Assembly (NCBI GenBank): GCA_019636335.1
Contig: JAHBXR010000010.1
Coordinates: 62,001 to 126,000 of the forward strand
Reading direction: 5' to 3'
Source: Pirellulales bacterium
Lineage (GTDB): Bacteria > Planctomycetota > Planctomycetia > Pirellulales > JAEUIK01
DNA: 64,000 bases
The notes below the pieces were generated by a model. That model saw nothing but the letters and a program-made list of their open reading frames with translations, did no database searches and was not told the origin of the DNA. This document shows positions 47,782-63,217 of the stretch, piece by piece (position 1 is the first letter of the stretch; every line of letters starts with the position of its first letter). The translations under genes were made by a program, and so were the position numbers.

Positions 47782-48681
47782 CTACTTGCTGGCGCTCGCC
47801 AGCTTGCGCCGCAGCGAACGGACGTTGTCCTGCACCACCAGCGGCATCTTCGAACGCAGCAGGTTCTTGCCCTCGAACCAGCCGTGCGGTTCATCGAAGG
47901 CCACGTGGCATTCGATGAACAAGGCCCCTCGCGGCTCGGCCAATTCTGTGACCTTGATATAGCCGCCGAGCCCCGTATAGGGCAGAGGATCGCCAGGGCT
48001 CAGCCGCCCGGCGGCGTCGCGCAACAGCGGTTGCCAGCGATTGGGAAATTCCTTGTCCTCGGCAAAGCGCTCGTCGAGCCGCAGCGCCGCGACCACCGAC
48101 CCGGCTTGCTTGGCGCGTTCCGTATAGGCCACGCCTCCCAGTTGCACGCGGTCGAGGATCGACACGTCGATCGCAATGAAATTCGGATCGAGCGCCGGAG
48201 TGCCTGCGAGCGTCAGCCCACGCTGTTTCAACTCTTCGGGCGTAAGGGCGCGAGCCTTGAGCGTCTCTTGATGAGCCGATTCGCTCTCCGCGGCGCCGGC
48301 CAGTTGGTCGAACAAACCTTCGTCTTCGAAGGCCGCCAGCTTGCCGTAGGCCACGAAGCAGAAGTCGATGCGCTGGCCACGCCGCTCGCCCGTCTCGTCG
48401 TCGAGCGAATTGATCTCGAGCACGAAGGGGGACACCACCGCGTTGCGCGTAAATCGATCGAGCGGATACTTGTCGGCGGCACGTTGGAGCGTTTCCTGCT
48501 GCTCGGCCGGCGTCATGCCCGCGGACATGATCGGCGTGGGCAACATGACCGCCGTTCCCGAGGGAAGCTTCACTCCCTGCTGGACGAGTTCTTCGAGCAG
48601 ATCGGCCCGGGCCTCGGCCGCCAGCAGCAGACCTGCCAGCACGAGCAGCCCCATCACGATCTCTTGGTTGAGTCGGCTCAT
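47782..48681 (-). CDS. Conserved secreted hypothetical protein
   Basis: A 299-residue protein with a signal peptide (EIVMGLLVLAGLLLAAEARA). The mature chain is predicted alpha/beta with no transmembrane helices. It opens DLLEELVQQGVKLPSGTAVM and contains several charged, ordered stretches (FVLEINSLDDETGERRGQ, LDPNFIAIDVSILDRVQLGG). The tail is basic (NVRSLRRKLASASK). No catalytic motif is recognisable and I cannot name a family; its well-behaved composition and signal make it a real gene. It lies between the TraB/GumN gene and the ABC ATPase gene, all on the minus strand. The gaps of 118 and 69 bp allow cotranscription with the ATPase. Confidence 0.7.
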   Translation of the reverse strand: MSRLNQEIVMGLLVLAGLLLAAEARADLLEELVQQGVKLPSGTAVMLPTPIMSAGMTPAEQQETLQRAADKYPLDRFTRNAVVSPFVLEINSLDDETGERRGQRIDFCFVAYGKLAAFEDEGLFDQLAGAAESESAHQETLKARALTPEELKQRGLTLAGTPALDPNFIAIDVSILDRVQLGGVAYTERAKQAGSVVAALRLDERFAEDKEFPNRWQPLLRDAAGRLSPGDPLPYTGLGGYIKVTELAEPRGALFIECHVAFDEPHGWFEGKNLLRSKMPLVVQDNVRSLRRKLASASK

Positions 48682-48750
48682 GGGTCGCTTCCTCTCCCTA
48701 CGGCGGCGGTTTTCACCACGAGGTGCGGGTAATTCTACGCCAGAGGCAAG

Positions 48751-49461
48751 TCACGGCGTCGCGGCGCGGCGCTCGTCGGCCTCGAACTTGCCGTCGCGCA
48801 AATGGATCACGCGTGCCGCCCGCGCCGCCACACGTGGGTCGTGCGTGATGAGCACCACGGTTAGATTGGCCTGGGCGTGCAGACGGAAAAAGAGCTCGAG
48901 AATCTCCTCGCCCGTCCGCGTATCGAGATTGCCCGTCGGCTCGTCCGCCAGCAGCAGCGCCGGATCGTTCGCCAACGACCGCGCGATCGCCACCCGTTGA
49001 CGTTCCCCCACCGAAAGTCTCATGGGGAGGTGGCCCGTACGATGCTGCATGCCGACCTCGGCCAGCAGGCGTGCGGCCTTCTCCGCGCGGGCGGCGACCG
49101 GGAGCGATGATTCGAACATCGGCACCTGCACGTTCTCGAGCGCCGTGAGCATCGGCAGCAGGTGAAACGACTGGAACACAAAACCGATGCGCTGGGCGCG
49201 AATCCGATCGGTGTTCGTCAGGCCGTTGACGAGCTGCCCCTCGAAATAGACCACACCCTGGGTCGGCTCGTCGAGCAATCCCAGCAACTGCAGCAACGTC
49301 GACTTTCCGCTGCCGCTCGGGCCGACGATCGCCACAAACTCGCCTCGCTCAATCGTCAGGTCCACGCCGTCGAGCGCCCGCACGTCGCCGTCGGGATAGA
49401 GCTTGGCGAGCCTCTCGGCGCGAAGCAGCACCCGGCTCGGATCTGGTTGGGAAGAGGGCAT
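48751..49461 (-). CDS. ABC transporter ATP-binding protein (LolD/MacB type)
   Basis: A 236-residue ATPase. The ATG at 49459-49461 gives the usual N-terminus (VLLRAERLAKLYPDG); the longer frame upstream is Arg-rich noise. Walker A is GPSGSGKST (47-55). The Q-loop lies in GFVFQSFHLLPMLTALENV. The signature is LSVGERQRVA (a variant of LSGGQ) and Walker B is LLLADEPTGNLD. An ITHDPRVAARA H-loop follows. It belongs to the LolD/MacB/FtsE class that drives periplasmic mechanotransmission. No permease is adjacent on the same strand, but a MacB-type permease gene lies 2.1 kb away on the plus strand, directly before the lipopeptide genes. The two could form one exporter. Confidence 0.9.
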   Translation of the reverse strand: MPSSQPDPSRVLLRAERLAKLYPDGDVRALDGVDLTIERGEFVAIVGPSGSGKSTLLQLLGLLDEPTQGVVYFEGQLVNGLTNTDRIRAQRIGFVFQSFHLLPMLTALENVQVPMFESSLPVAARAEKAARLLAEVGMQHRTGHLPMRLSVGERQRVAIARSLANDPALLLADEPTGNLDTRTGEEILELFFRLHAQANLTVVLITHDPRVAARAARVIHLRDGKFEADERRAATP

Positions 49462-49802
49462 GGCAAGTCGCGGGGCAGGGGGGGATGCGCTCGATGCAAT
49501 CGCTAGAACTTTCGCGATCGGACAGCACGGCAACGTAGAACGCGCACGATCTCTACAACTTAGCACACAGGTCCCCCGCAGCCCGATGGGGGGCGTTGCA
49601 ACCGCTACTTCGGCCGGCCGAAAGCGTGTCGAACGGCCCCGCAAGCTGTCGCGGCGCACCTCGTGGGACCGATACGAAACATCGGTGGACCGCGCGCTAC
49701 CGCCAGGATCGGCCAGGCGCGCGGTGGGCGGAGCACCAGCCATCACAACGTTCGACGGGCCTCGACCACGGCCCGCCGGCGCGCGTCACGGAGGCGATCT
49801 CG
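49462..49802. other. Divergent promoter region, no gene
   Basis: This 341-bp gap separates the divergent ABC ATPase and SppA-like genes. It should hold both promoters, though I could not pick out convincing -35/-10 pairs. A strong GGAGG ribosome-binding site 8 bp before ATG 49803 ends it. Long frames that run through from both sides have no protein-like features. Confidence 0.45.
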
Positions 49803-50861
49803 ATGCCGGGCCGCCAGGCAAACTGGCCGCTGCCGCTCGCGCGAGCATTCTGGCTCGTGGCGCTGGCCTTGTCGTTGGCCGGTTGCCGCCATCCCATCGC
49901 GGTCAAGACCGACAGCCGCGTGACGGTCGTCTCGCCCCAGCCGCACAGCATGGGACCGCTCGTCGCCATGCCCGTCGTCCACGGTCAGGTCGAGACCCCG
50001 CGCCGCATTGCGCTGGTCGACGTCGACGGATTGATCCTCAATCAGCCCATGACGGGACTCTACAGCGAAGGCGAGAATCCCGTCGCGCTCTTCCGCGAAA
50101 AGCTCGATCAGATCGCTCGCGACCCCTGCTATGCCGCCGTGGTGATTCGCATCAACAGTCCCGGCGGCGGCGTGACCGCCTCCGACGTCATCTGGCACGA
50201 TCTGCGCGAGCTGAAAGCCCGGCGCGGCATCCCCGTCGTGGCCTGCCTGATGGATGTCGGGGCTGGCGGGGCATACTACCTCGCCACGGCCGCCGATCAC
50301 ATCGTGGCCCACCCGACTTCGGTCACGGGGGGCATCGGCGTCATCCTGAATCTCTACAACCTCGAAGACGCCATGGCGCAATTCAACGCCGTGGGCACGC
50401 CCATCAAATCGGGCGAGTACATCGATCTCGGCACTCCCATCCGGGCTCAGAGCGACGAGGCCCGCGAGTTGCTGCAGACGATGGCCAACGAGTTTCACGG
50501 ACGCTTCAAGCAGGTCGTGCTCGAAGCGCGGCCCCAGGTGGCGCACGATCCGACCGACATCTTCGACGGACGCGTCTTCACGGCGCAGCAGGCACTTGGC
50601 CGACACCTGGTCGACTCGATCGGCTACGTCGACGATGCGATCGCCATCGCCGCGCAGATGGGGGGCGCACCCGGCGCACCGGTCGTGGCCCTGCATCGCT
50701 GCCACGATCGCGCGCGCACGCCCTACGACGTCACGCCGAACGTCCCCTTGCAGGCCAACTTCCTCCCGCTGAGCATTCCGGGACTAGAACGCTCGAAACT
50801 GCCCACGTTTCTTTATCTCTGGCAGCCCGAGCCCACGCTCGAGCGCATGAGCGGGCGCTGA
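49803..50861 (+). CDS. SppA-like S49-family lipoprotein lacking the catalytic serine
   Basis: A 352-residue exported lipoprotein: GGAGG 8 bp upstream of the ATG, hydrophobic signal and the lipobox LSLAGC with Cys28. The body matches SppA (ClpP/crotonase fold). It has RIALVDVDGLILNQ, then VVIRINSPGGGVTASDVIW (~118-136) and the segment where the serine nucleophile should be. In SppA that segment reads AASGGYY; here it is GAGGAYY, so Gly155 replaces Ser. The general-base Lys is retained (PIKSG, Lys202). The enzyme is therefore either inactive, a binding protein or uses another residue. It could be a regulator or scaffold of membrane proteins. Its downstream context is the MacB-type permease and lipopeptide genes. 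Confidence 0.85.
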   Translation: MPGRQANWPLPLARAFWLVALALSLAGCRHPIAVKTDSRVTVVSPQPHSMGPLVAMPVVHGQVETPRRIALVDVDGLILNQPMTGLYSEGENPVALFREKLDQIARDPCYAAVVIRINSPGGGVTASDVIWHDLRELKARRGIPVVACLMDVGAGGAYYLATAADHIVAHPTSVTGGIGVILNLYNLEDAMAQFNAVGTPIKSGEYIDLGTPIRAQSDEARELLQTMANEFHGRFKQVVLEARPQVAHDPTDIFDGRVFTAQQALGRHLVDSIGYVDDAIAIAAQMGGAPGAPVVALHRCHDRARTPYDVTPNVPLQANFLPLSIPGLERSKLPTFLYLWQPEPTLERMSGR

Positions 50862-51541: not shown

Positions 51542-52675
51542 ATGCGTTTAACCACCTTCGTTTACCGCAACCTCACGCGACGTCGCGTCCGCTCGGCGCT
51601 GACGGTCTGCGGCATGGCCGTGGCGGTGTCGGCGGTGGTGGCTCTGGTGGGCATCGCCGACGGATTTCGGCAATCGTTTCTCGACTTGTACGCTGGGAAC
51701 GGAATCGATGTGATCGTCGTGCGGGCTCGCTCGGCCGATCGCATGGCCAGCGAGTTGGATGAAACGCTAGGGCCCCGAATTGCCGGCCTCGAAGGTGTCG
51801 CCTCGGTCGAGCCGGTGTTGATGGATGCCATCTCGCTGGAAGATTCCGGCCAGATCGGCGTCGTACTGCAAGGACTCGATCCTGCCGCGCCAACCGTGCG
51901 CGACCTGCAGATTACCGCGGGGCGCACCCTGCGGAGCGGCGAGCAAAAGAGCGTTCTGCTCGGCCGAATACTCGCCCAGAACCTGGGCAAGCAGATCGGC
52001 GACAAGCTCGAGATCTACGAAGGCGAGGACTTCGAGGTCATCGGTACCTACGATCGGCAAAACCTGTTCGAAAACGGTTCGATGATCGTGCCCCTCGCCG
52101 AGCTCCAACGGATGCTCGGGCAGGAGGGGCTCGTCACCGCCTTCAATGTCACCGTGGCAGAACCACGCTCGGCCGAGACGATCGCTCACGTCGTGGCGAC
52201 CATCGACGGCATGCGCGCGGGGCTCTCGGCCATGGCCACCGAGGAATACGTCGCCACCGATAACCGCATCCGCGGCGCCAGCGCCATGGCGTGGAGCACC
52301 TCGGCCATTGCGTTGGTGATCGGCGCCATCGGCATGCTCAACACGATGATCGTGGCGGTCTTCGAACGCACGGGCGAGATCGGCATCCTGCGGGCCATCG
52401 GTTGGCGCAAGGGGCGCATCGTGCAGATGATCCTGCTCGAATCCAGTCTTTTATGCCTTGCCGGCGCGGTGGTTGGCACGGGGCTTGCGTTCTTGATGAC
52501 CTATTTGCTCAGCCGCGCGCCGGCTACGGCGGGACTCGTCAGCGCGACGATTCCCCCACACGTGGTAGCTCAGGGCTTTGTGATCGCCCTGCTGATCGGA
52601 CTTTTGGGGGCCAGCTACCCGGCCTTTCGCGCGTCGCGACTCACCCCCACCACGGCGTTGCGACACGAAGGCTAA
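51542..52675 (+). CDS. MacB/FtsX-type ABC transporter permease
   Basis: A 377-residue permease. One N-terminal membrane helix (SALTVCGMAVAVSAVVALVGIA, quoted here as VCGMAVAVSAVVALVG) is followed by a large extracytoplasmic domain (~45-240, MacB_PCD fold, with GRILAQNLGKQIGDKL). A C-terminal group of three helices follows, with the FtsX signature VFERTGEIGILRAIGWRKG (~283-301) and PAFRASRLTPTTALRHE at the end. This architecture belongs to MacB/LolC-type complexes that use mechanotransmission to export or extract substrates. There is no fused ATPase, so it needs a LolD/MacB-like ATPase such as the one at 48751-49461. It is 50 bp before the fatty-acyl-AMP ligase gene and likely cotranscribed. 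A role in lipopeptide export is inference. Confidence 0.9.
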   Translation: MRLTTFVYRNLTRRRVRSALTVCGMAVAVSAVVALVGIADGFRQSFLDLYAGNGIDVIVVRARSADRMASELDETLGPRIAGLEGVASVEPVLMDAISLEDSGQIGVVLQGLDPAAPTVRDLQITAGRTLRSGEQKSVLLGRILAQNLGKQIGDKLEIYEGEDFEVIGTYDRQNLFENGSMIVPLAELQRMLGQEGLVTAFNVTVAEPRSAETIAHVVATIDGMRAGLSAMATEEYVATDNRIRGASAMAWSTSAIALVIGAIGMLNTMIVAVFERTGEIGILRAIGWRKGRIVQMILLESSLLCLAGAVVGTGLAFLMTYLLSRAPATAGLVSATIPPHVVAQGFVIALLIGLLGASYPAFRASRLTPTTALRHEG

Positions 52676-52725: not shown

Positions 52726-54954
52726 ATGAAGGCAACGTTTCCCTCCCAGGGCGCCGGCCGCGTCGGCCAACAAGCGACGAACCTCGTCGAGGTATTTCGC
52801 CAGCGCGCCGAGGAACAAGCGGACCAGATTGCATTCACGGTGCTGGGCGAGCCCCACGCGGCGCCGCAGGATTACACCTACGCCGAGTTGGATCGCCGGG
52901 CAAGAGCGGTCGCCGCGCGGTTACAGCACACCTGCACGCCCGGCGCGCGCGCTCTGTTGATGTATGAGACCGGAATCGACTACATCGCGGCACTCGCCGG
53001 CTGTCTCTACGCCGGCGTGGTGGCCGTGCCCGTCTATCCCCCCGATCCCCTCCGCGCGACGCGAACCTTTCCGCGGCTCGAGGCGATCATTCGCGACGCG
53101 GACGCCTCGGTGCTCCTCGGCACGGCCGCCGATCTGGCCTGGGCCGGCACGATGCTAGGCAAGATCCCTCGTCTCCACGAGCTCGTCGCCACCGACGCGC
53201 TCGACGCGGCGTGGGCCGATCGTTGGCAGTTGCCCGAACTCGATCGCCAGTCGCTGGCCTTCCTGCAATACACCTCGGGTTCGACGAGTCTGCCCAAGGG
53301 GGTCGTGGTCCGCCACGGCAATGTGTTGGCGAACCTGGCCCAGATGGAACGCTCGCTCGACGTGCCCAACGCGCTGGTCTGCACCTGGTTGCCCACCTAC
53401 CACGACATGGGGCTGATCGGCGGAATCTTCCAATGCTGGTATAGCGCGCGGCGCAATATCCTGCTCACGCCCGTGGCATTCTTCCAGCAGCCCTTGCGCT
53501 GGTTGCAGGCCATCTCCGACTATCGCGCGACGACGACCGCCGCGCCCGACTTCGCCTACGAATGGTGCGTGCGCAAGTTCCGCGCCGAAGAGTGTGCCGA
53601 TCTCGATCTCGGTTGCCTGCAGATCGCCATGTCGGGCGCGGAGCCGGTCCGCGCGACAACGATCGAGCAGTTCGTCGAAACCTTCGGTCCCTACGGCATG
53701 CGTCGCGAAAGCTTCCGCCCCTGCTACGGACTGGCCGAGGCCACGCTGATGGTCGCGGCCGGCAAGCTCGCAAGCGTCGCCACCGTCGAACACTTCGACG
53801 GGGCCAAGCTGGCGCAAAACCGCGCGGCTCCGGTCAACGAAGCTGCCACCAACGCCCGCACGCTCGTCGCTTGCGGCACCTCCGCCGATGGCATACGCGT
53901 GCAAATCGTCGATCCGCAGACCCTCGAATGTCTCGCGGACGAACACGTGGGAGAGATCTGGGTCCAGGGCGAAAACGTCACCGCCGGCTACTGGGAACAG
54001 TCCGAGTTGTCGGAGCACACCTTTCGCGCTCGCACGGCCGACGGCGCCGGTCCGTTTCTCCGCACGGGGGATCTCGGCTTCTTCCGCCAGGGCGAACTGT
54101 TCATCGCCGGCCGACTGAAGGATCTGATCATCGTTCACGGGCGCAATCATCATCCCAACGATCTCGAACAGACCGTCGAACGATGCCACGAGGCGCTGAA
54201 GCCGCACGGCGGCGCGGCCTTCTCTGTCGAACAAGAGGGGCGCGAGCGCGTTGTCATCGTCCACGAGGTGCAACGCCCCAAACGCTTCGACCTGGACGAG
54301 GTCGCGCAGACGGTACGCCGCGCCGTGCTCGAGGCGCACGATCTCGTCGTCGACTCGGTCGTGCTCATCCGGCAGGGCTCGCTTTCGAAAGCCACCAGCG
54401 GCAAGGTACAGCGGCACGCTTGCCGCGAGCGTTACCTGGCGGGGGGCTTGAATGTGTTGCACGCCACCGAACGCGGCCAGCCTGGCAAGGGCTCCACAAG
54501 TGTCGAATACGTCGCCCCGCGCAACGAGATCGAAGCTCAATTGGCCGCCTCTTGGGCCGACGTGTTTGGCGTCGAGCGCGTGGGCGTCCACGACAATTTC
54601 TTCGACCTGGGGGGGCACAGCCTGCTGGCGGCACAAGTGGCCAACCGGCTCGCTCCCCGCTACGGCATCGAAATCACCCTGGCCGAGTTGTTCGAACGCC
54701 CCACGATCGCCAGCCTGGCCGAGTTGATCGCCGAACGGATGAGCGCCTCGGCCGAACTGGACGACCCCGCCGAATTGGCCCTGCTGGCGGAATTGGAACG
54801 CATGTCGGACGACGAAGTCCAGGCGGCGCTAGCCGCCAGCCGGGGAGAGTGCATGCCGCAACTCCCCTCGAACGACACCGATGCGACGCACGAACGATCG
54901 TGGTGGGGCAGTGCCGAGTTCGGCTCGCTCCGCGACTCGCGGCAGTCGGGTTGA
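52726..54954 (+). CDS. Fatty-acyl-AMP ligase with C-terminal carrier domain (FAAL-ACP)
   Basis: A 742-residue starter enzyme of a lipopeptide assembly line. The ATG has AGAAGGA ~8 bp upstream. Residues ~20-585 are a fatty-acyl-AMP ligase: YTSGSTSLPKGVVVRHGN (Y182 onward), LPTYHDMGLIGGIFQ (~208-222), ENVTAGYWEQSELSEHTF and the C-terminal GRLKDLIIVHGRNHHPNDLE (~462-481). FAALs activate fatty acids as acyl-AMP and pass them straight to a carrier without CoA. Residues ~600-670 are a carrier domain with the 4'-phosphopantetheine Ser in NFFDLGGHSLLAAQ (Ser632). It starts 50 bp after the permease and 31 bp before the first NRPS. It should load the chain that the first NRPS condensation domain uses. 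Confidence 0.94.
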   Translation: MKATFPSQGAGRVGQQATNLVEVFRQRAEEQADQIAFTVLGEPHAAPQDYTYAELDRRARAVAARLQHTCTPGARALLMYETGIDYIAALAGCLYAGVVAVPVYPPDPLRATRTFPRLEAIIRDADASVLLGTAADLAWAGTMLGKIPRLHELVATDALDAAWADRWQLPELDRQSLAFLQYTSGSTSLPKGVVVRHGNVLANLAQMERSLDVPNALVCTWLPTYHDMGLIGGIFQCWYSARRNILLTPVAFFQQPLRWLQAISDYRATTTAAPDFAYEWCVRKFRAEECADLDLGCLQIAMSGAEPVRATTIEQFVETFGPYGMRRESFRPCYGLAEATLMVAAGKLASVATVEHFDGAKLAQNRAAPVNEAATNARTLVACGTSADGIRVQIVDPQTLECLADEHVGEIWVQGENVTAGYWEQSELSEHTFRARTADGAGPFLRTGDLGFFRQGELFIAGRLKDLIIVHGRNHHPNDLEQTVERCHEALKPHGGAAFSVEQEGRERVVIVHEVQRPKRFDLDEVAQTVRRAVLEAHDLVVDSVVLIRQGSLSKATSGKVQRHACRERYLAGGLNVLHATERGQPGKGSTSVEYVAPRNEIEAQLAASWADVFGVERVGVHDNFFDLGGHSLLAAQVANRLAPRYGIEITLAELFERPTIASLAELIAERMSASAELDDPAELALLAELERMSDDEVQAALAASRGECMPQLPSNDTDATHERSWWGSAEFGSLRDSRQSG

Positions 54955-54985
54955 TTCGCAGCATGTAGAAAGCAGTTCCCCGCTC

Positions 54986-57900
54986 ATGCCACAAGCCCTC
55001 GCTGCACGACTGGCTCAGCTCTCGCCCGAGAAGCAGGCGCTCTTCGAGCAACTGCGCCGTGGCCAGCGCACCGTCACTGCCGCTGGCTCAGCGGACTCGC
55101 GCGATGCAACCTCGTGTTGGGCGCCCCTCTCCTTTGCCCAAGAGCGCCTCTGGTATCTCGATCAACTGACGCCCGGGAATCCCTTCTACAACGTGGCCAC
55201 CGCGGTGCGCCTGCGCGGGCAACTCGATTTCCAGGCCTTGCAGGCCGCCTTACAAGCTACGGTCGATCGCCATGCGGGGCTCCGCACGACCTTCGCGCTC
55301 GTCGAGGGAGAGCCGCGTCAGATCGTCGGCCCGGTCGAATTGCCGCTCGCGCAGCTCGACCTGCGCGACGTGCCGGTTGACCAGCGTGAAGCGCGACTCA
55401 GATCCATCGCCCAAGAAGAAGCGCTGCGATCGTTCGATCTTGCCCGTGGACCGCTGCTGCGCGCGCAGCTCGTACGCACGCGGGACGACGAGCACACGCT
55501 GCTCCTGACGCTGCATCACATCGTCTGCGACGGATGGTCGTTGGCGGTGCTGCAAGACGACGTGGCAGAATATTATGCGGCACACGTCGCAGGACGTTCA
55601 CCCGACTTGGCGCCCCTCGCGCTCGAGTACCTGGACTACACCCGGCGGCAACGCCACGAATTGCCAGGCGCCAGGCTCGACGCTCTCTTGCGTTACTGGT
55701 CTCGCGAGTTGTCCGATCTGCCGGGCCCACTCGAGTTGCCGACCGATCACCCGCGCCCCGCCGCGCAAACCTTTCGTGGCGACGTCTGCCGGCTCATGCT
55801 CGACCGCGAGTTGAGCGGCGAGTTGCGCGTGCTAGCCGGCGCCGAACGCGCCACCCCTTACATGCTGTTGCTGGCCGCCTGGCAGCTCTTGCTGGGACGC
55901 TGGTCGCGGCGGCACGACGTGGCCGTGGGAACGCCGATCGCGCAGCGCCACCATCGCGACCTGGAACGCCTGGTCGGCTTCTTCGTCAACACGCTCGTGC
56001 TGCGCGGCCGTTTCGAGGACGACCCTTCGTTCCGCGAATTCCTCGATCGCGTGAAGCAGTCGACGCTCGGCGCGCTCACCCATCAGGAGCTTCCCTTCGC
56101 TCGGCTGGTCGAACATTTGCAACCGCCGCGCGACGCAAGCCGACCGCCCCTCGTGCAGGTGATGTTCGTCATGCAGAACATCCCGGTGCGTGCCCGGCAG
56201 ACCGCTGGGCTAACGATCGAAGAGACAAGCTACGATCACGCGCCGGTCTCCCATTTCGACCTGACATTGAACGTCGACGAGCGACACGACGGCTTTCAAC
56301 TGTCGCTCGTCTTCAATCCCGACTTGTACGAGCGAGAAACCATCGAGCGTCTGCTCGCCTCGTACGAGACGTTGCTCCGCTCGATCGTGGCCGAGCCTGC
56401 CCGGCGCGTCAGCCAATTGGCACTGGCACCGGCGGCCGACCTGCGCCGGCAGCTCGTCGAACGAAATCGCACGAGTCGTTCGTTCCCCCACGACCGCATG
56501 ATTCACGAGCTCATCGCCGAACGGGCCGCGGCCGATCCGACGGCCATCGCGCTGGTGCTCGAAGATCGGCAGGTCACCTATCACGAACTCGACGCGGCCG
56601 GCAATCGGCTGGCTCGATTGCTCGCCGCACACGGTGTGACGACGGGAACGCCCGTCGGCATCTCGCTCGATCGGTCGGTCGAGCTGATCGTGGCCATGCT
56701 CGCGGTGCTCAAGGCGGGGGGCGTCTACGTGCCGCTCGATCCCGCCTACCCACCGCAGCGGCGGGCTTACATGATCACCGACGCCGGGCTTGCGCTCGTG
56801 CTGACCCGCGCCGATCTCGCCGCAGGAATTCAGACTCTGGGCTGCCAGCTCTTGCTGCTCGACGCCGAACAGCGAACGATCGACTCGATGAGTGCCCAAC
56901 CGCTCGAACGGCGCTGCGCTCCGCGCGATCTCGCCTACATCATCTACACGTCGGGCTCCACGGGCGAGCCGAAGGGGGTCGAGGTCGAGCACCGGGGGCT
57001 CGTCAACCATGCTGTCGCTTTCGCCGCACAATGCGAGTTAGGCCCAGGCGATCGGTTGCTGCAGTATCTCTCTCCCAGCTTCGACGCCGCGGCCGAGGAG
57101 ATCTTTCCCACGCTCGCCAGCGGCGCCACGCTCGTGCTCCATCCGGCCCCGGCGGAGCTGGCCGGGCGGTCGCTGCTCGAGTGGTCGCGCGCGGCCGGCG
57201 TCAACGTGCTGCACCTGCCGGTCGCCGTGTGGAATTCGTTGTTCGACGCGGAGCACGAAGCCACGCTCTTCGATCATCTGCGGTTGGTGATTGCCGGGGG
57301 CGACAATGTCTCGCGCGATGCTCTCCGCCGCTGGCGCGAGATGACGCGCGATCGCGTGCGATTCCTCTTCGCCTATGGTGTCACCGAGGCGACGATTACC
57401 TCGACGCTGTTCGACGGCCGCGAAGAACCCGCCCCTTCGGGTTCGCCGCGCATTCCCATCGGCCGCGCCCTGGCCAACCATCGCGTCTACATCCTCGACG
57501 AGCGGCTGCAGTGCGTTCCAACGGGCGTCGCCGGCGAGATCGCGCTCGGCGGAGTCGGTGTCGCGCGCGGCTACCGGGGCCGCCCCACGCTCACCGCCGG
57601 GAAGTTCGTGGCAGATTCCTTCGGCCTCGAGCCCGACGACCGCATCTATCGCACGGGCGACCTGGGACGAGTGCTCGCCGACGGCAGCATCGAGTTCCTC
57701 GGACGCATCGATCAGCAGGTGAAGATTCGCGGCTATCGCATCGAGCCGGGCGAGATTGAAGCGGCCTTGTTGCGCCACCAAGACGTTCACGAAGCGATCG
57801 TCGTTCCGCTGGGGGACGGCGAATCGCGCCGCCTGGCGGCCTATGTCGGCAGCCCGGGCGATCGCCCCCCCACCGAAGCGGATCTGCGTGAGTTCCTCGC

Positions 57901-59731
57901 CGATATGCTTCCCAGCCACATGCTGCCGACGGCAATCACCGTGCTGGCCCACTTGCCGCGGCTGCCGGGGGCGAAGGTCGACGTGGCCTCACTCCCCGAT
58001 CCGAATTGGAACCGCGCCACGCGATCCGATGCAGGCGTCGCCCCGCGCGATGAGCTCGAGGCCCAGTTGGCCGCCATCTGGCGCGACGTGCTCGGCATCG
58101 AGCGCGTCGGCGTGCATGACAACTTCTTCGAGCTTGGCGGAGACTCGATTCGCACGATCCAGGTTGTGGCCCGGGCCGGCGCGCAGGGTCTGCGCCTCAC
58201 GCCGAAGCAATGCCTCGAGCGCCAGACGATTGCCGAGCTCGCGCCGGTAGTGGGGCTCGCGCCGGCGGTGCTTGCCGAACAAGGTCCCGTGGTGGGCCCG
58301 GTTCCGCTACTGCCCATCCAGCACGAGTTCTTCTCGCTCGAGCTGGCCGACGCGCAGCACTTCAACCAGTCGGTCTTACTCGAGGTCGATCCCGCGCTTT
58401 CCAGCGAAGTGCTCGCCACGGCCCTACGCCTGCTGGGTGAACATCACGATGCCCTGCGAATGCGTTACGAACGGCAGCCGGACGGCTCCTGGCGGCAAAG
58501 GGGCCTACCGACAGAAGCGGCTCCCATGCTCGAACGTGTCGAGTCGACCGCTATCGATGTCACGGAAATCGTCGCCGCCGTCGATGCCGCGGCCGCCGCG
58601 ATTCAGGCCGGACTCGATCTCGCGCGAGGACCGATCGCACGATTCGTTTACTTCGACCGTGGAGCATCGCAGTCGGCCCGGCTGCTGATCGTGGTGCATC
58701 ACCTGGCGATCGACGCCGTAAGCTGGCGCATCGTGCTCGAAGATCTCAACCTGTTGTGCGGCCAACTTCAGCGTGGCCAAGCACCTGTCCTGCCCCCCAA
58801 GACGACTTCCTATCGCGATTGGAGCGATCGGCTTCGCGAGTACGCAGCCAGCCACGAGATCGCCGAGGAAGCCGCCTCTTGGCTCTCCACCGCGGCTGAA
58901 AACCGCCGGCTGCCATGCGAATCGAGCGAGCGTACGAACACGGTCGAATCGAGTGCCACGGTTCGCGTCGCGCTAGACGCGGACATGACGCAGGCGCTCC
59001 TCACCGATGCCCAGTTGGCCTATCGCACACGACCGCAAGATCTGCTCTTGGCGGCGCTCGCCCACGTGCTGACCGACTTCACCGGTGACCACGCCGTGCG
59101 GCTCCATCTCGAAGGACACGGGCGAGAAACCGCGGCCGAGGATCTCGATCTTTCGCGCACGGTCGGCTGGTTCACGGCGCTCTATCCCGTCGTGCTTCGC
59201 CTTCCCGCGACTAACTCGCCCGGCGACCTCATTCGCGAGACGAAGGAGCAACTGCGGCAGATTCGCAACGGCGGCCTCGGCTATGGGCTGTGGCGCTGGT
59301 TGTCGCACGACGACACCGTGCGTGCAACACTCGCCGCGGCCCAACGACCGGAGATCTGCTTCAACTATCTGGGACAGTTCGATCATCTCGTGGCGGACGA
59401 AGCGCTTTTGCGACCCGTCGACGAGCCCCACGGCGCCGACCACGGCCCTCGCAACGAGCGTGCCCATCTGTGGGAAATCAACGCTTACGTCCACCAAGGC
59501 GCGCTCCAGATCGCCTGGACGTACGGCACCGGTCACCATCGCCGCGAAACCATCGAGCGACTCGCGGCGGCCTATCTCGACCAACTCCGCGAGCTGATCG
59601 AGCATTGTCTTGCGCCAGGGGCCGGCGGCGTGACGCCTTCGGATTTTCCCCTGGCCGATCTCGATCAGGACGATCTCGACACCATCGCGGCCCTGCTCGA
59701 ACGGGACGAACCCGAGAGCGACCGATCATGA
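54986..59731 (+). CDS. Non-ribosomal peptide synthetase, C-A-T-E module
   Basis: A 1581-residue single-module NRPS. The ATG 54986 (MPQALAARLAQLSPEK) is chosen since the longer frame reads into the FAAL gene. C domain ~47-480: HHIVCDGWS (H177-H178). A domain ~500-1000: YTSGSTGEPKG (Y654 on), core motifs intact although the usual YGPTE is YGVTE, and GRIDQQVKIRGYRIEPGE. T domain: Ser1054 in NFFELGGDSIRTIQ. E domain ~1100-1540: HHLAIDAVSW (H1238-H1239), LHLEGHGRETAAEDL and EICFNYLGQFD. The E domain should convert the loaded amino acid to D. The approximate specificity code is D-A-E-H-V-A-A-I-T, which I cannot assign to a substrate. The stop overlaps the next gene's ATG by 4 nt. Confidence 0.94.
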   Translation: MPQALAARLAQLSPEKQALFEQLRRGQRTVTAAGSADSRDATSCWAPLSFAQERLWYLDQLTPGNPFYNVATAVRLRGQLDFQALQAALQATVDRHAGLRTTFALVEGEPRQIVGPVELPLAQLDLRDVPVDQREARLRSIAQEEALRSFDLARGPLLRAQLVRTRDDEHTLLLTLHHIVCDGWSLAVLQDDVAEYYAAHVAGRSPDLAPLALEYLDYTRRQRHELPGARLDALLRYWSRELSDLPGPLELPTDHPRPAAQTFRGDVCRLMLDRELSGELRVLAGAERATPYMLLLAAWQLLLGRWSRRHDVAVGTPIAQRHHRDLERLVGFFVNTLVLRGRFEDDPSFREFLDRVKQSTLGALTHQELPFARLVEHLQPPRDASRPPLVQVMFVMQNIPVRARQTAGLTIEETSYDHAPVSHFDLTLNVDERHDGFQLSLVFNPDLYERETIERLLASYETLLRSIVAEPARRVSQLALAPAADLRRQLVERNRTSRSFPHDRMIHELIAERAAADPTAIALVLEDRQVTYHELDAAGNRLARLLAAHGVTTGTPVGISLDRSVELIVAMLAVLKAGGVYVPLDPAYPPQRRAYMITDAGLALVLTRADLAAGIQTLGCQLLLLDAEQRTIDSMSAQPLERRCAPRDLAYIIYTSGSTGEPKGVEVEHRGLVNHAVAFAAQCELGPGDRLLQYLSPSFDAAAEEIFPTLASGATLVLHPAPAELAGRSLLEWSRAAGVNVLHLPVAVWNSLFDAEHEATLFDHLRLVIAGGDNVSRDALRRWREMTRDRVRFLFAYGVTEATITSTLFDGREEPAPSGSPRIPIGRALANHRVYILDERLQCVPTGVAGEIALGGVGVARGYRGRPTLTAGKFVADSFGLEPDDRIYRTGDLGRVLADGSIEFLGRIDQQVKIRGYRIEPGEIEAALLRHQDVHEAIVVPLGDGESRRLAAYVGSPGDRPPTEADLREFLADMLPSHMLPTAITVLAHLPRLPGAKVDVASLPDPNWNRATRSDAGVAPRDELEAQLAAIWRDVLGIERVGVHDNFFELGGDSIRTIQVVARAGAQGLRLTPKQCLERQTIAELAPVVGLAPAVLAEQGPVVGPVPLLPIQHEFFSLELADAQHFNQSVLLEVDPALSSEVLATALRLLGEHHDALRMRYERQPDGSWRQRGLPTEAAPMLERVESTAIDVTEIVAAVDAAAAAIQAGLDLARGPIARFVYFDRGASQSARLLIVVHHLAIDAVSWRIVLEDLNLLCGQLQRGQAPVLPPKTTSYRDWSDRLREYAASHEIAEEAASWLSTAAENRRLPCESSERTNTVESSATVRVALDADMTQALLTDAQLAYRTRPQDLLLAALAHVLTDFTGDHAVRLHLEGHGRETAAEDLDLSRTVGWFTALYPVVLRLPATNSPGDLIRETKEQLRQIRNGGLGYGLWRWLSHDDTVRATLAAAQRPEICFNYLGQFDHLVADEALLRPVDEPHGADHGPRNERAHLWEINAYVHQGALQIAWTYGTGHHRRETIERLAAAYLDQLRELIEHCLAPGAGGVTPSDFPLADLDQDDLDTIAALLERDEPESDRS

Positions 59732-62676
59732 AGAACGTCGACGACCTGCTCCCGCTGGCTCCCTTGCAAGCGCTGCAATTCGCGCATGCGCTGGCCGAGC
59801 CCGACTCGCCGCTGCTGGTCGAGCAGCTCCGCGCGACGCTCGAAGGTCCGCTCGACGTGGCGCTGTTTCGGCGCGCCTGGGAAACCATCGCCGCCAGGCA
59901 CGCGATGCTACGCGCCGCACCGGCCTGGGAAGGGCTGAAGAAGCCCGTGCTCGTCGTGCATAAACAGATCGAGCTTCCTTTCAGCGAGCTCGATTGGCGA
60001 GCACCCGACGTAACAGAGCAGCACACGCGTCTCGCCGCATGGGCCGCCGAAGATCGCCGCCAGGGATTCGACCTGCGCCGCGCGCCACTCTGGCGCATCC
60101 AGTTGATACGGCTGGGGGACGAGCGTTGGCAGTTGCTCTGGACGTGCCATCACTTGCTCCTCGACGGCTGGTCGGTGGGTATCGTGTTGCGCGAGGTCTT
60201 CACATGGTACGCCGCACAGCGTCAGGAGCAGAGCATGCCACTCCCCCCGGCGGCCCCGTTCCGCGACTTTCATACCTGGCTCAAGCGGCAAGACCACCCC
60301 GCGAGCGAGCAGTTCTGGCGCGAACAGCTTGCCGGCTGTACGCCGCTGGGTGGATTGCCCCTCGAGCGAGCCCCCTTTGAACCGCGGCCCGATCGCACGG
60401 GACATGGCGAGATCGAACGCCATCTCTCGCCGGAAGACACGGCTCGTCTGCGCGAACGAGCCAAAACCTTGCGCGTCGGCGAAAGTGCCTGGCTGCAAAC
60501 CGCCTGGGCCATCCTGCTCGGCCGCCACTTCGAGCGTGAGGAACTGCTCTTCGGCGTGGCCGTAGCGGGCAGGCCGCATTCGCTGCCACTGGTCGACGCG
60601 ATCGTCGGACCCTTCGTCAACAACGTCCCCCTGCGTGTGACGGCGCGGCTCGACGACGCCTGGAGCGACGTCTGCCGGACCGTTCAAGCCGCGGGCAGAA
60701 CCGCCCAGGCGCACGAGCACGTTCCGCTCGACGCGATTGCCCGCGCCGCGGGCATGCCCCCCGAACGGCGCTTGTTCGAGACGCTCGTCGTGCTCGAAAA
60801 CTATCCGCTCGGCGACTCGGCCAGTCGCCAGATCGGCGCTCTCCAGATCCGCGATATCCACGGCACCGCGACCTCGGCCTATTCACTCACGCTGGTGGCT
60901 CTCCCCGGCGAAGAGCTTGGCCTCCGTTTGCTGTACGACACGAAGCGGTGGAGCGAAACGACCGCCCGTGCCGTGCTGGAGCAGTTCTTGACACTCCTCG
61001 CGCAAATGAGCGAGCAGCCGGAAGCCCGCGTACGCGATCTCTCGCTGACTGCCTCCGCCCCGCGCGAACTCGCCGACGAAGAGGGGCGTCTCTCGGTGCG
61101 CGATATTGCCGGCCAACCGGCGCCGAGCTATCTGCCCGGCGAGCTGTGGTACTCTCGCGCAGGCAGCGCACCGCGCCCGACCGGTTATCGCGCGCAGCTT
61201 CTCGCCGATGGAGAAATCGAATATCTCGGGCCTGGACGTGCGTCGTTGCGCGTCGGCCGCTTCGCGATCGATCCGGACGAAATCGTGCGCGTCCTCGAGT
61301 TGCATCCACTCGTCGCGCGGGGGGCAGTGGTCGGCACGTCCTCGCGCACGCGCGCGACGCAACTGGCCGCCTATGTCGAGCCGGCGAGCGGCGCCCGGGT
61401 CGGCATCGACTCGGGCGATCACGGACTATTGCTGGGGCAATTGCGCCGTTTCGCCGAGGCACGACTACCGGCCCCCCTGTTACCCCTGGCGTGGCGCGTG
61501 GTCGACAAGCTGCCGCTCGACGCGCAGGGCGTTCTCGATACGACCGCCTTGCCCGAGCCGATGCGTGCGCGCGGCGAAACGAGCACGCCCTACGTCGCGC
61601 CGCGCGATGCGGTCGAGGCGCGCGTGGCCGAGATCTGGTCACAAGCGCTCGGCGTCGAGCCGGTCGGCGTGAACGACAGTTTCATCGACTTGGGGGGCTA
61701 TTCGAGCCTCGCGGTCACTTTGCTGGCCCGGCTCGAAGACGAGTTCGCGCGGCGCTTGCCGCTGGCGGCCTTGTTCGAGGAACCGACCGTAGCCCATCTG
61801 GCGAAATTGTTAGGACGCGAGGCAGCGACGCCCGAGGAAATCTCGCTCGTGCCGCTGCGCGCCGGCGGTGGTAAGCCTGCGTTGTTCTGCGTCCATCCCG
61901 CGGGCGGAACCGTGTTTTGCTATCTGGAGTTGGCTCAGAGGCTCTCCGACGATCGTCCCGTGTATGGCCTGCAGGCCGCCGGGATCGATGGCACGACGGC
62001 GCCGCACGAGACGATCGAGGCGATGGCGGCGCATTACCTGTCGGCGATCAAGTCCGCCCAGCCGACGGGGCCCTATCATCTCTGTGGTTGGTCGACCGGA
62101 GGAGTCGTCGCGTTCGAATTGGCGCGGCAGATGCGAGCCGCCGGCGACGAGGTGGGGTTGCTGGCACTGCTCGACGCGGCCATTCCACGGCCGGGAGAGT
62201 CCTTCGGCGCCGACGATCTGCTGCCGATGCTCGAGCTGCTTTTTCCGACCGATGATCGCCAGGTGCTCGAACGATTGCGCGAGATGCCCGCCAGCGCTCA
62301 ACTCGAGCATTTCCGCGGGCGGGCCGAGGCCGCGCAATTGCTGATCGCAGGCGCCGGCGCCTCGCAGGCAAAGCGCATCTACGAAGTATTCCAGGCCAAC
62401 ATGCAGGCGGTGGTCGCTTATCGACCAGGTCCCTACGATCGGCGCATCACGCTCTTTCGCGCCGCCGATCATGCGACTCCCATGCATGCCGACCGCACGC
62501 TCGGCTGGGAACCGTGGGCCAGCGGCGGTATCGAATTGCACGACGTCGCTGGCGAACACTTAAACCTCTTGAAATCTCCTACCGTACTGGCCATCTGCGT
62601 ACAATTGCAGCACGCCCTGGGCGAGGACACGAGATCGCCAGCACGCCACCACGAAACGGCCCACGCTGCCACCTGA
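59728..62676 (+). CDS. Terminal NRPS, C-(A remnant)-T-TE
   Basis: A 982-residue protein translated from an ATG that overlaps the upstream NRPS stop (ATGA). C domain ~1-430: LLPLAPLQALQFAHALAEP and HHLLLDGWS (H141-H142). It follows an E domain, so a DCL type is expected. Then comes only the tail of an A domain: LADGEIEYLGPGRASLRVGRF (~492-512, an A8-like stretch, lightly degraded) and a C-terminal subdomain. The A1-A7 core, including the AMP site, is missing. T domain: Ser659 in FIDLGGYSSLA. TE domain: GWSTGG (Ser789), Asp816 (LLALLDAAIP) and His944 (GEHLNLL). The triad is complete. The second amino acid must therefore be supplied in trans or by another protein. Confidence 0.93.
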   Translation: MKNVDDLLPLAPLQALQFAHALAEPDSPLLVEQLRATLEGPLDVALFRRAWETIAARHAMLRAAPAWEGLKKPVLVVHKQIELPFSELDWRAPDVTEQHTRLAAWAAEDRRQGFDLRRAPLWRIQLIRLGDERWQLLWTCHHLLLDGWSVGIVLREVFTWYAAQRQEQSMPLPPAAPFRDFHTWLKRQDHPASEQFWREQLAGCTPLGGLPLERAPFEPRPDRTGHGEIERHLSPEDTARLRERAKTLRVGESAWLQTAWAILLGRHFEREELLFGVAVAGRPHSLPLVDAIVGPFVNNVPLRVTARLDDAWSDVCRTVQAAGRTAQAHEHVPLDAIARAAGMPPERRLFETLVVLENYPLGDSASRQIGALQIRDIHGTATSAYSLTLVALPGEELGLRLLYDTKRWSETTARAVLEQFLTLLAQMSEQPEARVRDLSLTASAPRELADEEGRLSVRDIAGQPAPSYLPGELWYSRAGSAPRPTGYRAQLLADGEIEYLGPGRASLRVGRFAIDPDEIVRVLELHPLVARGAVVGTSSRTRATQLAAYVEPASGARVGIDSGDHGLLLGQLRRFAEARLPAPLLPLAWRVVDKLPLDAQGVLDTTALPEPMRARGETSTPYVAPRDAVEARVAEIWSQALGVEPVGVNDSFIDLGGYSSLAVTLLARLEDEFARRLPLAALFEEPTVAHLAKLLGREAATPEEISLVPLRAGGGKPALFCVHPAGGTVFCYLELAQRLSDDRPVYGLQAAGIDGTTAPHETIEAMAAHYLSAIKSAQPTGPYHLCGWSTGGVVAFELARQMRAAGDEVGLLALLDAAIPRPGESFGADDLLPMLELLFPTDDRQVLERLREMPASAQLEHFRGRAEAAQLLIAGAGASQAKRIYEVFQANMQAVVAYRPGPYDRRITLFRAADHATPMHADRTLGWEPWASGGIELHDVAGEHLNLLKSPTVLAICVQLQHALGEDTRSPARHHETAHAAT

Positions 62677-63217
62677 ACCTGCCGTTTCGCCCCACCACGT
62701 CTGCTCCATTGTCCGCCTTCGCTAATTGCATCGACTGAATCGATTCTGTGCTTCTGTCTGCGCCCGGCAGCCCAAGTAAGGACATCTTTCACAACCATTC
62801 AGCGAACCGTTGCAAACGGGACTGGACTACGCTTGCCAAAGAGAAGTCGTGCCGCCATCGGACAGCCGGAGTGAAAGCACCCCGCGTCCGGCTGTGCCAC
62901 GACGGGCGGAACGCCGCACCGCGGCGCAAGTGACGATGAGCAAAGGCCCCCAGTCGCGTTGCCGCGGAGGTTCGACGGCCCGAAAAACTTGCTCCGATTT
63001 CCGACTCCAAGGGTGCAAAACCCCGCCGGCCATCGGGTATTCTTATGGGTTACCACTACTAGCGGGGATGGCGTATTTCGACAAGATAGCGGGCCTAGGC
63101 AAGACCCTGCGTCACTTGGCGCCACGGTCTACCGCCGCGCCACACGCCCCGCACACGGACGATTGACGAATGCTGATACGGCCCTGCCGGCCGTTTGCTC
63201 CCGAAAAGGATTTGCCC
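62677..63217. other. Intergenic region between NRPS and the next synthase
   Basis: The 541-bp gap shows no supported gene; all frames are short or Arg-rich. It ends with an AAAGGA ribosome-binding site 8-12 bp before ATG 63218. A TATTCT hexamer near 63045 could be a -10, without a good partner. It may hold a promoter for the right-edge gene. Confidence 0.45.

Follow-up and report, generated by a model that had tools for sequence, protein, structure and literature searches.

CmnA and CmnI are NRPS proteins of the capreomycin line, in which the A1 domain of CmnA has been demonstrated to load the A-less CmnI in trans (PMC12400406). CmnI has no A domain at all and is an internal module. Sib1 of S. 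pombe has a degenerate second A domain, and charging by another A domain has been proposed (PMC2644324). Degenerate A domains are also ascribed to the fungal siderophore synthetases SidD, Nps6, and SidC (PMC12400406). These fungal synthetases are single polypeptides with neither a fatty-acid starter nor an E-TE arrangement. Syringomycin SyrE ends in a terminal C-T-TE that lacks an A domain; its dedicated partner, SyrB1, is a stand-alone A-T gene. In daptomycin-type and puwainaphycin lines, the first C domain receives its fatty acid from a starter that consists of a fatty-acyl-AMP ligase (FAAL) and an ACP.

The locus described here lies in a 64,000-nucleotide stretch of DNA from a Pirellulales bacterium, here called the window. 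Three co-directional genes at positions 52726-62676 encode FAAL-ACP, C-A-T-E, and C-(A remnant)-T-TE proteins. An initial sequence-only reading had proposed three adjacent genes with this domain order; the open reading frame coordinates bear out the adjacency, with a gap of +31 bp between genes 1 and 2 and of -4 bp (an ATGA overlap) between genes 2 and 3, and the domain order is confirmed by Pfam, NCBIfam, and active-site motifs.

The line resembles the capreomycin pair in having an A-less module whose T domain is predicted to depend for charging on an A domain located in a different protein. Unlike CmnI, its A-less module is terminal and carries a TE as well as a dead A remnant, the line has a FAAL starter, and no MbtH gene was found in seven of the eight genomes searched, for which reason MbtH dependence was rejected. 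Like Sib1-type synthetases, it keeps a degenerate A domain whose carrier is presumably charged by another A domain; unlike the fungal proteins, it is split over subunits and has most of that A domain deleted. It shares the FAAL and ACP with the daptomycin-type and puwainaphycin lines but has only two modules, one A domain, and no described product. Its terminal module recalls SyrE; however, no stand-alone A-T protein with a shuttle was found in the window's neighbourhood or genome. Each element has a precedent, and no description of the combination was found. The earlier claim that no planctomycete product matches stands as far as it can be checked: a 2025 review of the phylum covers five compound classes, with no mention of NRPS or lipopeptides (PMC12078418).

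Gene 1 (52726-54954, 742 aa) encodes a fatty-acyl-AMP ligase with its own carrier. It matches PF00501, PF23024, and a PP-binding domain (PF00550), and FAAL families are among its best NCBIfam matches. The T domain (54538-54729) contains the motif GGHSL. The FAAL and its carrier stand directly before the first C domain, as in FAAL-initiated lipopeptide NRPS lines.

Gene 2 (54986-59731) encodes a C-A-T-E module. Its start is an ATG 31 bp past gene 1, in a frame that is already open from 54881. The module comprises a C domain (55121-56440), an A domain (56516-57961), a T domain (58064-58243), and an E domain (58283-59680). The A domain (AMP-binding) scores 443 bits against TIGR01733, for which the cut-off is 317, and is accompanied by Condensation, PP-binding, and a second, epimerase-type Condensation match with TIGR01720. 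In alignments the active-site motifs are HHIVCDG in C, GGDSI in T, and HHLAIDAVSW in E, and the A10 lysine is present.

The pocket code of the gene-2 A domain is DAEHIGAITK, and it is constant as DAEH[ILV]G[AC]ITK in the remnant-bearing lines. Among characterised pockets, the closest one found is that of anabaenopeptin ApnA-A1 (4D4G), the best single-A-domain PDB match. Seven of ten pocket positions are shared with the ApnA-A1 code DVEDIGAIEK, the differences lying at positions 236, 278, and 331. Arg, Tyr, and Lys are the substrates linked to the published ApnA-A1 codes DVEDIGAIEK/DVESIGAIAK; Glu at 239 orients Arg/Tyr, and the substitution S243H, equivalent to the His at the same position of the gene-2 code, favours 4-azidophenylalanine. 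The activated residue X may be large and polar, of the Arg/Lys/Tyr kind, or aromatic, a tentative reading in view of the shift in specificity caused by S243H. A literature search for exact or near codes returned no match to DAEHIGAITK. A related code, D[VL]EN[IV]GA[IV]TK, occurs in the last A domain of dimodular C-A-T-C-A-T-TE lines that recur in MAGs labelled Alphaproteobacteria, Verrucomicrobia, Acetobacteraceae, Deltaproteobacteria, and Binatus (L050, L054, L055, L058, and L059).

Gene 3 (59728-62676, 982 aa) encodes the terminal module and starts at the ATGA overlap. Condensation, PP-binding, and Thioesterase are recognised by Pfam in its C (59743-61059), T (61621-61812), and TE (61879-62589) domains, and AMP-binding_C stays below threshold (20.8 against 24.5 bits). 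The active sites are HHLLLDG in C, GGYSS in T, and S789/D816/H944 in TE, so that the thioesterase triad is intact as first read. These catalytic residues are invariant in an eight-sequence alignment, and the T3 serine, the C-domain HHxxxDG motif, and the TE triad are intact in 12 of 12 related loci. A module without a functional A domain but with intact C, T, and TE sites is the arrangement of the trans-iterative A-domain NRPS of the CmnA/CmnI type.

The A-domain remnant (61090-61563, motifs A6-A10) is the C-terminal third of an A domain, from about PheA residue 354 onward. When a profile was built from the remnants of ten relatives, its matches were confined to the last third of A domains, namely PheA 354-526 at 4e-25 and LgrA 514-684 and 1546-1715 at 5.7e-60. 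Motifs A1-A5 are missing, and with them the ATP site and the pocket residues N-terminal to 354. In all ten remnants the A7 aspartate is gone (TGD is replaced by TGY, TGM, TGE, or TGG), as is the A10 lysine, the K of NGK. The AlphaFold model of the remnant has a confident fold (pLDDT 84.7), and its top Foldseek match is 1amu (PheA). The model of full-length gene 3 is moderate (pLDDT 73, pTM 0.55), and domain orientation was not taken from it. Remnant identity to the window is 37-56% in the nearest relatives (G040, G049, G024, G067, G006, and G058), against 41-51% for the C domain, which indicates that the remnant is kept although dead. The remnant is thus catalytically dead but, as modelled, well folded, and its conservation marks it as something other than decay.

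The C-(A remnant)-T-TE architecture is present in ten genomes of the order, the window included, across four taxonomic families. Five full-length relatives belong to one family (G040, G049, G024, G067, and G058), two to the window's own family (G006 and G003), and two to further families (G775 and G704). With nine other genomes sharing it, the architecture is neither chance nor an assembly artefact. In two more genomes, G009 and G027, the C-T-TE gene has no remnant at all, and A2 function is lost in 12 of 12 related loci. The remnant noted in the sequence-only reading is therefore real but not an individual lesion. That reading had also named degenerate A or T sites as grounds for rejecting the line; degeneracy was found for A2 and not for T, and given this conservation the line holds. 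In a phylum-wide sample of 392 genomes, the only full-length match is in the window's own genome.

Natural variants establish the order of the line. A C-A-T-E gene precedes the gene 3 relative wherever the contig extends far enough; gene 1 is fused to gene 2 in G775, G009, and G027, and the E domain of gene 2 is fused to gene 3 in G003. The fused FAAL-T-C-A-T-E protein of G009 and G027 has 2.3 thousand residues and the pocket code DVEHVGE[IV]TK, and the C-T-TE gene lies on another contig. In G009, the former is at L206:5509-12438 and its presumed, unlinked partner at L179:12697-15153; both genes are flanked on both sides by non-NRPS genes. Outside the phylum, C-A-T-E-C-T-TE occurs as a single protein in an Anaerolineaceae (Chloroflexota) MAG, and E-C-T-TE in a Scytonema MAG, so an A-less terminal module after E arose or spread more than once. 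The Anaerolineaceae protein (L069:5270-12712) is a one-A synthetase with the code DVYYLGGICK, and no FAAL gene was seen nearby.

The C domains of the line fall into two types in a FastTree phylogeny of 173 C domains. Those of gene 2 group with C domains located after FAAL-T (support 0.965), as expected of an acyl-accepting first C domain. Those of gene 3 form one clade (support 0.996), within a larger clade that contains all 12 after-E C domains and only one C domain that follows T within the same protein; its other members are the first domains of their fragments. The tree fits acyl transfer first and then condensation onto a D-residue. The C-domain phylogeny points to one common origin for the A-less gene 3. 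In the T-TE tree, two A-containing sequences from the window's family (G002 and G005) fall inside the A-less clade, which requires module exchange or more than one loss.

The three-protein line probably makes an N-acyl dipeptide, with a single A domain charging both carriers and the second of them in trans. Gene 1 would activate a fatty acid as acyl-AMP and transfer it to its own carrier, T1. The A domain of gene 2 would load X onto T2, where the C domain would acylate it and the E domain epimerise it to acyl-D-X-T2. Since module 2 has irreversibly lost A function, T3 would be charged in trans, and the gene-2 A domain would do so. The D-accepting C domain of gene 3 would then couple acyl-D-X to the amino acid on T3, and the TE would free acyl-D-X-L-X, either in acid form or, where X has a nucleophilic side chain, as a ring. 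The retained remnant would serve as a structural platform linking C to T. By analogy, CmnA/CmnI and Sib1 offer precedents for such trans charging of T3. The sequence-only reading had left the second residue unspecified; because module 2 has no selector of its own, this residue needs an outside source, for which the module-1 A domain is the likeliest candidate, and a homo-dipeptide is predicted. Domain identities and order, the intact C, T, E, and TE sites, the loss of A2 function in all relatives, and the single A domain of four near-complete genomes are read from the sequence; trans loading, both residues, the acyl chain, and the mode of release are inferred.

The source of the second residue is the point at which other explanations divide. 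T3 could be charged by a different enzyme encoded elsewhere, such as an unrecognised AMP-ligase, an aaRS-like carrier-protein ligase, or an A-T didomain with a shuttle as in SyrB1/SyrE, and the second residue would then differ from the first. Syringomycin, albicidin, ramoplanin, and enduracidin are known to rely on separate charging enzymes (PMC8949500), and some relatives do carry further A domains. This explanation is nonetheless unlikely, given four near-complete genomes (94-99%) that lack a second amino-acid-type A domain. In these genomes (G000, which is the window's own, G006, G040, and G058) no TIGR01733 match apart from the module-1 A domain exceeds the curated cut-off, and by that measure an alternative dedicated A domain is absent. 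G000 has fifteen other AMP-ligase-like matches, two of them too weak to align, and the A4 Asp235 motif of amino-acid A domains is absent from all 13 that could be aligned; neither these alignments nor the TIGR01733 search yielded a stand-alone A partner in G000. The conserved neighbourhood likewise holds no free A or A-T gene. One AMP-ligase domain of G000 (C15, around 47936-49216) lies within an open frame of 8117 aa. The situation differs in G024, G049, and G003, which have further A domains over the TIGR01733 cut-off, and in G009, which has an A-T-TE protein; in these four genomes T3 may have another trans partner. With a sole module-1 A domain, no Asp235 motif in the aligned AMP-ligases of G000, and C, T, and TE intact throughout, the simplest account is that the gene-2 A domain charges T3.

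Module 2 might instead add no residue, gene 3 serving only to release an N-acyl-D-amino acid or an amide with a free amine. The missing A domain and the requirement for a TE after E would fit such a role, and N-acyl amino acids, the stieleriacines, are known from planctomycetes (PMC12078418). Retention of the HHxxxDG condensation motif in 12 of 12 relatives and the grouping of the gene-3 C domain with peptide-forming C domains that follow E speak against it and make it quite improbable. Hardly credible is a decaying line in which gene 3 heads toward a pseudogene following the loss of A2. The A7 and A10 residues are indeed lost and most of the A domain deleted; however, the same state recurs in ten genomes of four families with frames intact and the other active sites kept, and remnant identity is like that of the C domain. 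A pseudogene was rejected because this truncated state is conserved. Charging of both carriers by the gene-2 A domain remains the preferred account.

The cluster extends past 52726-62676, with a MacB-type permease and an SppA-like lipoprotein just upstream. The permease (51542-52675, forward strand; PF12704, PF02687) is a MacB_PCD/FtsX-type ABC permease directly 5' of the FAAL gene. Its orthologues, 59-65% identical, occupy the same place in G006, G024, G040, G058, and G049 (partial), and a relative of about 46% identity lies near the line in G775. An ABC transporter ATPase (48754-49746, reverse strand; PF00005, 7.4e-34) is divergent from the operon; these are the limits of the frame as called, and the true start is probably inside. 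Its homologue is in the same place and also divergent in G006 (L041) and adjoins a PPTase gene in G040 (L034). PPTase genes are nearby in G040, G024, G058, and G775.

The lipoprotein (49845-50861, forward strand) is an SppA/S49-like pseudo-peptidase with a match to PF01343 (1.9e-34) and the lipobox LAGC. No other protein of the cluster is as well conserved: its orthologues in the same position in G040, G006, G058, and G024 are 64-76% identical. Alignment to 3rst/4kwb places Gly at the SppA nucleophile Ser and Ile at the general-base Lys, which in B. subtilis SppA are Ser147 and Lys199. Both are absent in five of five orthologues, which have Gly, and Ile or Val, so none of them contains the Ser-Lys dyad of an S49 signal peptide peptidase. 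A role as a prodrug peptidase was dropped, as both catalytic residues are gone.

A second cluster follows immediately downstream, from window position 63170 to L187:16448. It contains a large protein with nitronate-monooxygenase-like, KS, AT, ACP, and KR domains, an AT-DH protein, an ACP, an alpha/beta hydrolase, and its own MacB permease and ABC ATPase, which are paralogous to those of the NRPS cluster (43% identity for the permeases). This PKS as the source of the acyl chain is not supported, since it is not beside the operon in relatives.

Taken together, the line may represent an undescribed class of planctomycete lipodipeptide synthetase in which two carriers on separate proteins share one A domain, with the remnant as a docking element or spacer for trans loading and export of the product by the MacB-type transporter with the dead SppA-like lipoprotein, a broader proposal that is held only tentatively. 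The line is a compact two-module test case for one A domain feeding two modules, one of them on another protein. Its natural variants, with the remnant kept or lost and the genes fused or unlinked, let the role of the remnant be tested directly. The locus also suggests a class of lipopeptides in a phylum whose 2025 review mentions no NRPS product (PMC12078418).
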